From positions 310,001-374,000 of the forward strand of contig NZ_LANF01000019.1 of NCBI RefSeq assembly GCF_000966265.1: 64,000 nucleotides of DNA, written 5' to 3'. Made by a program: the position numbers and the translations under genes. This DNA is from Palaeococcus ferrophilus DSM 13482 (GTDB lineage: Archaea > Methanobacteriota_B > Thermococci > Thermococcales > Thermococcaceae). Every line of letters begins with the position of its first letter. Within the stretch, counting starts at the first letter, position 1. Positions 40,021 through 42,376 of the stretch are shown here, in pieces. The notes under the pieces were generated by a model that worked only from the letters and a program-made list of their open reading frames with translations, was not told the origin of the DNA and did no database searches.

Positions 40021-40797
40021 TCAGTTTATCTTCTCGAGCATCTTGAAGGTGCTGGTTTCCACGAGTATGCGCCATATCCTCTCGTCGTAGCTGGGGTGTG
40101 TGGCCATGAAATCTCTCTTCGGCTTCCTCTCGAGGGTCGGCTCGATTCCCGGGAGCAGGGAGGCCTTAACACCCATCCTTATGTCCTCGTAGTACTTGAG
40201 CTCTTCCAGAGCATCCTTGAGGTCGAAGGGCCTTTCCAGCAGGTGGAGGGCCGTTTCATCCGCCATGAACTCCCTGTCCTTTAGGGTGTGCACCCTGAGA
40301 GCCTCGTAGAGTGCGTAGAGTATGAAGGATAGCATGGCGAGGTGCGTGTGTCCGGAGAGCAGCGTTACTAGGGCCATCACCACCATCCAGTAGCGGGCGT
40401 AGGCGAGGAACGGGAACAGGCGCGTGTCGCCATTCTTTATGTGTCCTATCTCGTGGGCGGCAACGCCGAGGATTTCGTTTTCACTCAGCACCTCGAAGAG
40501 GCCTAGGGAGAGCACCAGGGCGTTTTTGAAGGAGAAGGCGTTCGGGATGTAGTCCTCGAGGATGTAAACGCGGGGCATCGCTATTCCCGCTCTGGCGGCC
40601 ATCATGGCTATGCCGTCGTAGAGCCAAGGCATATCGTCATAGCGTAAACGGTGGTAGTTCCCGTTCTCCACGTTCCTCATCAGCGAACGGTAGAGGAGGA
40701 CGAGGGCCAGTGCCATTACTACAGCTATGCCCACGCCAAGCCTGCCAAGGGCGAGGAACACGACCAGCGCTTGGGCCACGAGGGGGATGTAAAACAT
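40021..40797 (-). CDS. M48 family zinc metalloprotease (HtpX-like)
   Basis: A 258-residue membrane protease with two N-terminal helices (residues about 3-37), the catalytic HEIGH motif at 115-119 (GVAAHEIGHIKNGD), a central pair of helices and a downstream acidic helix KDREFMADETAL that provides the third zinc ligand. It follows a BlaI/MecI-type repressor gene by 6 bases on the same strand, an association recalling bacterial antirepressor protease systems. Role here: membrane protein quality control or signalling, inferred. Confidence 0.85.
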   Translation of the reverse strand: MFYIPLVAQALVVFLALGRLGVGIAVVMALALVLLYRSLMRNVENGNYHRLRYDDMPWLYDGIAMMAARAGIAMPRVYILEDYIPNAFSFKNALVLSLGLFEVLSENEILGVAAHEIGHIKNGDTRLFPFLAYARYWMVVMALVTLLSGHTHLAMLSFILYALYEALRVHTLKDREFMADETALHLLERPFDLKDALEELKYYEDIRMGVKASLLPGIEPTLERKPKRDFMATHPSYDERIWRILVETSTFKMLEKIN

Positions 40798-40803
40798 AGA
40801 GCA

Positions 40804-41169
40804 TCACTTCTTGATCTTCGAGAGGTAGGCGAAGGTAGCCTCTTTGAAGTTGCTCATCAGTGCGTCAAGGATGCTCTCGACGACCCGCTGTTCGAACTCG
40901 TCCCTCGTGGTGGTCACCTTGTAGATGTACCTCATGCCCCCTCTCCCCTTGCTGACCTCGCGCTTGAGGAGGCCTTTGTCGCAGAGGCGGTTCATGAGTA
41001 TGCTAACGGTGGAGCGCCTGAGGTCTGGATGTTTTTCCCTGAGGCTCTCGTAGACCTCGCCGGCGGTAGAAACGCGGGCCTTCCACATGTACTCCATGAT
41101 CTCCGCTTCCAGGGGCGGCAGAACAGCTTTTAATCCCTCCTCGGTGAGTTTGAACTCGTGGGGCTCCAT
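40804..41169 (-). CDS. BlaI/MecI/CopY family transcriptional regulator
   Basis: A 121-residue winged-helix regulator with a PPLEAEIMEYMWKA start, an HTH of about residues 30-60 (STAGEVYESLREKHPDLRRS, then TVSILMNRLCDKGLLKRE) and a beta hairpin, then a C-terminal helix. The family recognises dyads through a dimer and in bacteria is cleaved by a partner protease. Here the next gene is an M48 protease. ATG 41169 begins MEPHEFKLTEEG; an AT-rich promoter region (TTATAAAAATT near 41214-41224) lies between it and the divergent deaminase gene. Confidence 0.85.
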   Translation of the reverse strand: MEPHEFKLTEEGLKAVLPPLEAEIMEYMWKARVSTAGEVYESLREKHPDLRRSTVSILMNRLCDKGLLKREVSKGRGGMRYIYKVTTTRDEFEQRVVESILDALMSNFKEATFAYLSKIKK

Positions 41170-41250
41170 AGCTATCCCTCTTTCCGGTGATGTTATTAAC
41201 TACGCGGATAACCTTTATAAAAATTCGCCCCTATCTCCTTTGGTGGTGTG

Positions 41251-41778
41251 ATGGAGATATTCCTCGACGAGGCGAAGGCGGAGAGAATAAGGCGGATTCG
41301 CCCGACGAAGGACGAATACTTCATGCTCATAGCGAAGCTGGTTTCCCTCAGGGCCACATGTCCAAGGCTGAGGGTTGGGGCGGTTGCCGTTAAAGACGGC
41401 TACATTCTCGCCACCGGGTACAACGGCGCGCCTAGGGGGATGGACCACTGCATCGACGTTGGTTGCCTCATAGTTGACGGCCACTGCCACCGGGCCGTTC
41501 ACGCGGAGCAGAACGTCATAGCGATGGCCGCGAGGAAGGGCATAAGCCTCGAGGGGGCGACCCTCTACGTCACGCACTTCCCCTGCGATACCTGCTTCAA
41601 GATAGTCCTCAACGCGGGAATACGGGAGATAGTCTACGAGGAGATGTACCCTAACGAGGCCACGGAGGTTCTCCTCAAGGAGGCGCGGGAGAAGGGCATA
41701 GTGAGGATAAGGCAGTTCAAGCTCGATAAGGAGCGTGCGAGGCTCTTCCTGCGGGAGCTCTTTGGGGAAGACTTCTGA
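41251..41778 (+). CDS. dCMP deaminase family protein
   Basis: A 175-residue zinc-dependent cytidine/deoxycytidylate deaminase-fold enzyme. HAE at 84-86 (HRAVHAEQN) and PCDTC with C112 and C115 form the zinc site, and E86 is the proton shuttle. The N-terminal GYNGAPRGM is typical of dCMP deaminases, which make dUMP for dTMP synthesis. ATG 41251 has GGTGG at about 41242-41246. A C/D box RNA begins in the first base after its stop. Confidence 0.9.
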   Translation: MEIFLDEAKAERIRRIRPTKDEYFMLIAKLVSLRATCPRLRVGAVAVKDGYILATGYNGAPRGMDHCIDVGCLIVDGHCHRAVHAEQNVIAMAARKGISLEGATLYVTHFPCDTCFKIVLNAGIREIVYEEMYPNEATEVLLKEAREKGIVRIRQFKLDKERARLFLRELFGEDF

Positions 41779-41843
41779 CGGCGGCGGCTATGAGGAACTC
41801 TAGGGTATCTGAATTGTGATGAGGGTCAAGACCTGAGCCGCCG
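41779..41843 (+). ncRNA. C/D box sRNA (predicted)
   Basis: Box order and spacing match an archaeal C/D box RNA. C box ATGAGGA (41790-41796, one mismatch to RTGATGA), a 12-nt guide, D' box CTGA (41809-41812), a 3-nt spacer, a perfect C' box GTGATGA (41816-41822), a 10-nt guide, and D box CTGA (41833-41836), bracketed by a CGGCGGC/GCCGCCG terminal stem. It would direct 2'-O-methylation in rRNA or tRNA through L7Ae, Nop5 and fibrillarin. Predicted targets contain AUACCCUAGAGU (D' guide) and GUCUUGACCC (D guide), with the fifth base from the box being modified. Confidence 0.85.
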
Positions 41844-41871: not shown

Positions 41872-42276
41872 TCAGAGGCTCTCAAGGTACTTCGCGTAGG
41901 CTTCCGCATCCATAAGCTCCTTGAGCTCCTCTTCGAGGTTGGCCGGCTTGAGCTTGGCTATCCAGGCCTCGTAGGGCTCCTCGTTGATCTTCTCGGGAGC
42001 GTCGTCAAGCTCCTCGTTGACCTCAAGGATTTCTCCGCTGACCGGGGCGTAGACCTCCGAGACGGCCTTGACGCTCTCGACCTCACAGAGGACGTCGCCC
42101 TTTGAGACCTCGGTTCCCACCTCAGGGAGCTCGACGTAGGCCAGATCGCCAAGCTCCTTCTGGGCGTAGTCGCTTATCCCTACGAGAACCGTTCCGTCCT
42201 CAAGAACCTGGGCCCACTCGTGGTCCTTGGTGTAGTAAAGGCCTTCTTTGACCTTGTATTCACCGACTTCAATCAT
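41872..42276 (-). CDS. gcvH: Glycine cleavage system H protein
   Basis: A 134-residue lipoyl carrier. The lipoylation site is K70 in [11 protein letters not shown], preceded by the [13 protein letters not shown]-like beta repeats of the H-protein fold. It shuttles the aminomethyl group between the P, T and L proteins, none of which is in this window. ATG 42276 has GGTGATTGCT before it; an ATG three codons upstream lies in the ribosome site. It faces the pantoate kinase gene back to back with about 100 bases between starts. Confidence 0.95.
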
Positions 42277-42376
42277 AGCAATCACCGCTTGTTTTATCTA
42301 CAAAAAACATTTAAACCTTTCTCTTCAGGGGCTACCCTTAAAAATTCCGGCGCGTATGCCCTCTGGAGGTGATGAG

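Follow-up and report, generated by a model that had tools for sequence, protein, structure and literature searches.

A box C/D guide sRNA beside gcvH in Palaeococcus ferrophilus, orthologous to circular sR38 of Thermococcus kodakarensis

Table 1 of PMC9014305 describes a circular C/D sRNA of Thermococcus kodakarensis, sR38 (1167276–1167338, 63 nt). The counts for the wild type are 11,287 aligned reads and 106 circular reads; for the RNA-ligase knockout, the circular count is 0. The name follows the numbering of that paper and is not that of Rfam sR38; the paper gives no alias from the earlier transcriptome. The locus described here lies at 41779–41843 of a 64,000-nucleotide stretch of the Palaeococcus ferrophilus genome (the window), and had been presented in an earlier note as a previously unlisted C/D box guide RNA. 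This was correct with respect to Rfam, since the scan of 41779–41843 gave no match at the gathering score, but an orthologue had been reported in 2022 as T. kodakarensis sR38 (PMC9014305). The sRNA family is thus not new, having already been published as an expressed T. kodakarensis RNA, though it is absent from Rfam. Sub-threshold Rfam matches were obtained at 41786–41838 of the plus strand, in the same register, and were led by the archaeal C/D families sR44, sR1, sR14 and sR3; the best score was 25.4 bits (sR44) against a cut-off of 45, which places the RNA in no named Rfam sR family. These four families share the box framework of the window sRNA, and sR44 also carries the box C AUGAGGA, but their guides differ and the matches lie under the gathering scores.

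The comparison with sR38 was made in genome G029, which we take to be that of T. kodakarensis KOD1. Its minus-strand homologue, whose box C lies near 1167333, coincides with sR38 at 1167276–1167338. The identity of G029 leans on matching sRNA coordinates, the three other published ones that were readable also landing on C/D box sequences in this genome (L155–L157), while two further stretches were masked. Both RNAs have the same D' guide, CTCTAGGGTAT, followed by box D', the same box order and a place in a gcvH-linked family, whereas sR38 differs from the window sRNA in its D guide (AGAAAAAGAG) and its box D (CCGA). Additionally, the sR38 gene has an upstream TATA-like element (TTTTAA) and sits behind a match to sR51, and neither feature is visible at the window copy. 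Expression as a small stable RNA was seen for the orthologue in the RNA-seq counts tabulated in PMC9014305. The window sRNA is a genuine, intact archaeal box C/D sRNA and the orthologue of T. kodakarensis sR38.

Box C/D architecture

The following elements were found within 41779–41843:

41782–41788, plus strand: 5' arm of the terminal stem, CGGCGGC (sequence and predicted fold)
41790–41796, plus strand: box C, ATGAGGA (read directly; RTGANGA form in the homologues)
41797–41808, plus strand: D' guide, ACTCTAGGGTAT, 12 nt, pairing through positions 2–11 from the box with 23S rRNA UACCCUGGGG
41809–41812, plus strand: box D', CTGA (read directly)
41813–41815, plus strand: D'–C' spacer, ATT, 3 nt (read directly)
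41816–41822, plus strand: box C', GTGATGA (read directly)
41823–41832, plus strand: D guide, GGGTCAAGAC, 10 nt, variable among relatives and with no convincing target
41833–41836, plus strand: box D, CTGA (read directly)
41837–41843, plus strand: 3' arm of the terminal stem, GCCGCCG, 7 bp (sequence and predicted fold)

Boxes C, D', C' and D are present in the order expected of an archaeal box C/D sRNA, and direct reading agreed with the boxes, order, guide lengths and spacer given in the earlier note. The 7-bp GC terminal stem claimed there was also recovered, both in the sequence and in the RNA fold prediction (41782–41788/41837–41843). With guides of 12 and 10 nt, a 3-nt spacer and this stem, the sRNA measures 62 nt, within the size of archaeal box C/D sRNAs (~50–65 nt). 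Position 5 of box C is not the U of RUGAUGA but G in the window, and A, C or G in the listed homologues; the same variant occurs in Rfam sR44.

The boxes are short, and a chance arrangement with no RNA gene behind it had to be considered. A four-box descriptor matched once in the whole window, both strands included, and gave 0 matches in 200 simulated sequences of 64 kb each (first-order Markov), in line with the claim that such an arrangement is very unlikely to arise by chance. Family-wide conservation and the sequencing of the orthologue as RNA also count against coincidence, the probability of which we regard as practically negligible. The box architecture, the near-universal conservation in Thermococcaceae and the published T. 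kodakarensis transcript together uphold the reading of the locus as a C/D box guide RNA.

Conservation of the D' guide and its predicted 23S rRNA target

Homologues across Thermococcaceae were recovered by DNA search of relatives. The D' guide with its box D', CYCTAGGGTATCTGA, was present in 86/94 genomes of the family and in 70 of the 74 near-complete ones, and the reversed control pattern gave 0 matches in the same genomes; the search for conserved boxes in relatives, which had been proposed earlier, was thus positive for this part of the RNA. This genome tally is a fairer measure of conservation than the set of loci L001–L030 and L100–L123, which were picked by similarity or exact pattern, so that guide identity among them is partly selection. 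The four near-complete genomes without CYCTAGGGTATCTGA (G008, G016, G020 and G032) all belong to the Pyrococcus-like group g2, which we take as Pyrococcus from Rfam matches, and each holds the guide variant CCCAGGGTAT. A weak match in the distant genome G076 looked spurious, having no matching guide and box and resembling coding DNA.

The 16S and 23S rRNA genes were not found in the assembly of the window genome (23 contigs, rated 99.99% complete) with models RF00177, RF01959 and RF02540, presumably because of an assembly gap, and the target was therefore read from relatives. Among rRNA sites, 23S UACCCUGGGG paired best with the D' guide, and this site came first in 7/7 of the 23S sequences tested. 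The duplex covers guide positions 2–11, with eight Watson-Crick and two G-U pairs and position 1 unpaired, and the N+5 nucleotide of the 23S site is a C, in a G-C pair with position 5. When aligned with a 2905-nt E. coli 23S sequence, the predicted methylation site falls at U2442, which is 2441 in the usual 2904-nt numbering (conversion via A2451). The D' guide would thus most likely direct 2'-O-methylation of the 23S C corresponding to E. coli 2441, next to the peptidyl-transferase centre. The rRNA and tRNA target search proposed in the earlier note yielded a defensible 23S target for the D' guide and none for the D guide; run as an exact-complement search for AUACCCUAGAGU, it would have missed the 23S site owing to the two G-U pairs. 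Within the window genome, the complement of the guide 12-mer occurs without mismatch only at the sRNA gene itself.

Taken alone, the match to 23S stands out only moderately: 3.6% of shuffled guides pass the strict test and 13% the looser one. Guide variation in the Pyrococcus-like genomes and in two genomes of g3 is confined to positions 8, 10, 11 and 12 (the variants of L169 and L171 were read by eye). The changes at positions 8 and 10 turn G-U into G-C with the 23S site, position 11, where the duplex ends, is unpaired in three Pyrococcus-like variants, and position 12 lies outside the duplex and varies freely. Six of the 30 possible single changes at positions 2–11 would keep the 23S pairing. 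The comparative support for the predicted 23S target is stronger than the single match, since the Pyrococcus changes fall mostly at wobble pairs and pairing is kept, and we consider the prediction good.

The same guide variants helped to weigh other targets. The tRNA scan gave nothing credible; the one further RNA gene in which a near-match recurred was that of tRNA-Cys (AUAGCCUAGAG), which in most Thermococcaceae fits the D' guide over 11 nt but for a single mismatch. A true C/D sRNA methylating C11 of this tRNA instead of 23S appears very unlikely, because the mismatch (G-G) is at position 4, adjoining the nucleotide that would be methylated, a second mismatch is present in the window genome and G001 (GATAGCCTAGTGG), and the Pyrococcus-like variants lose tRNA-Cys pairs while keeping those with 23S. 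Somewhat less remote, but still improbable, is a true C/D sRNA that would act mainly as an rRNA folding chaperone, a role proposed for archaeal C/D sRNAs (PMC4644070), or would guide another rRNA site such as 16S CCCCUGGGGU. The latter pairs at guide positions 4–12 in 6/7 genomes, but positions 1–3, next to the box, are unpaired, and in the Pyrococcus-like G003 another 16S site ranks first. At the 23S site, pairing begins at position 2 in every species, and the changes seen are compatible with wobble pairing.

The explanation that we hold with high confidence as a whole is that of a C/D guide sRNA orthologous to circular sR38, whose D' guide would direct methylation of the 23S C2441 equivalent, whose D guide is probably not a conserved guide and which is probably trimmed from the deaminase transcript. 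It draws on the box architecture, the conserved D' guide, the 23S complementarity and the T. kodakarensis homologue coinciding with a sequenced RNA. By analogy with what is known of such RNAs, the C/D and C'/D' motifs would serve as assembly sites for L7Ae, Nop5 and fibrillarin. D' guide positions 2–11 would base-pair with 23S rRNA 5'-UACCCUGGGG-3', and fibrillarin would 2'-O-methylate the C that lies opposite the fifth guide nucleotide counted from box D'. This C corresponds to E. coli 2441 and is separated from the peptidyl-transferase ring by a few nucleotides. The literature examined gave no methylation data for it. The locus adds a guide RNA that is unlisted in Rfam yet near-universal in Thermococcaceae, and it offers a concrete methylation prediction next to the peptidyl-transferase centre, for which the genetically tractable T. 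kodakarensis could serve as test organism.

The rRNA matches of the D guide GGGTCAAGAC were no better than those of shuffled sequences. Its candidate targets at the 16S 5' end and in 23S near 645 were discarded, being at chance level and shifting between species. A core, GGTCAA, is common to several genera, but many Thermococcus have an A-rich stretch in place of the D guide and CCGA in place of box D. It is unlikely that the D guide is conserved as a methylation guide.

Neighbouring genes, promoter and carrier turnover

The sRNA is flanked by two genes, whose names had been given correctly before:

41248–41778, plus strand: dCMP/cytidine deaminase-like gene (PF00383; ORF, Pfam E 1.2e-26), stop codon at 41776–41778, the probable co-transcribed upstream gene
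41872–42285, minus strand: gcvH (PF01597 GCV_H; ORF and Pfam), convergent downstream neighbour

G002 (g1) and the inspected loci of g3 and g5 also have a gcvH gene close to their copy of the sRNA, so that gcvH is the ancestral neighbour; among the loci examined, the deaminase gene adjoins the sRNA only in the window. Most relatives have a TATA-like element (TTTATA, TTATAA, TTTTAA or TTTATC) ~27–32 bp before the sRNA, the search expression having missed L015 and L018. No such element was seen upstream of the window copy, where the sequence is GC-rich and coding, and for this reason the RNA is probably processed from the deaminase transcript, being trimmed out of its 3' end. Processing from the same transcript had been suggested before as a possibility; it is plausible, and the missing element strengthens it as a reading of the sequence.

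The missing element would equally suit a degenerate, unexpressed remnant of an sRNA that had lost its own promoter. We find this barely credible, given the intact state of the boxes, the terminal stem and the conserved guide, and the presence of the family in almost all Thermococcaceae. Moreover, most archaeal C/D genes have no promoter of their own and rely on flanking genes (PMC7994747), which makes the arrangement in the window an ordinary one. Processing of an intact sRNA from the deaminase transcript is the simplest reading.

In Pyrococcus-like genomes (L163–L171), an sRNA with no other relation to that of the window carries nearly the same guide, placed before its box D. This carrier is a member of RF00095 (snoPyro_CD) in L163, L166 and L170, where the guide, CCCTAGGGTAT or CCCAGGGTAT, pairs with the same 23S site. 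It differs from the window sRNA in holding the guide before box D and not D', in its other guide (GTTCGCTAGA...), which is unrelated, and in the location of its gene elsewhere. The best 23S match of the second guide lies near the shared site. These loci suggest that the guide moved between sRNAs or arose twice.

A broader scenario, to which we give about an even chance, is that one guide sequence persisted across Thermococcaceae through a remodelling of its carrier: a gcvH-linked D' guide in Thermococcus and Palaeococcus-like genomes, and the D guide of an unrelated sRNA in Pyrococcus. The companion guide would have been lost in many Thermococcus, and the window gene would have lost its own promoter, leaving the sRNA to come from an mRNA 3' end. 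The locus shows a guide conserved while carrier, companion guide and promoter turn over; the general understanding of C/D sRNAs is unchanged by it.

The D'–C' spacer measures 18–22 nt in Thermococcus loci L026, L027, L029, L030, L102, L111, L113, L114 and L137. Several Thermococcus copies with long spacers contain a 6-bp GC hairpin there (CCGCGCTCCGCGCGG is one), so that a K-turn-like stem would take the place of the usual internal K-loop.

In genomes of g3 and g5 (L012, L015, L020, L024, L136 and L137), another C/D sRNA, sR51 (RF01305), was found directly upstream in the same orientation, and the two sRNAs may form a small cluster there. Elsewhere in the window, at 40021–41169 of the minus strand, an M48 peptidase gene adjoins a gene for a penicillinase-repressor-family (BlaI-like) regulator; the pair resembles BlaI/M56-type pairs, but the peptidase is M48.
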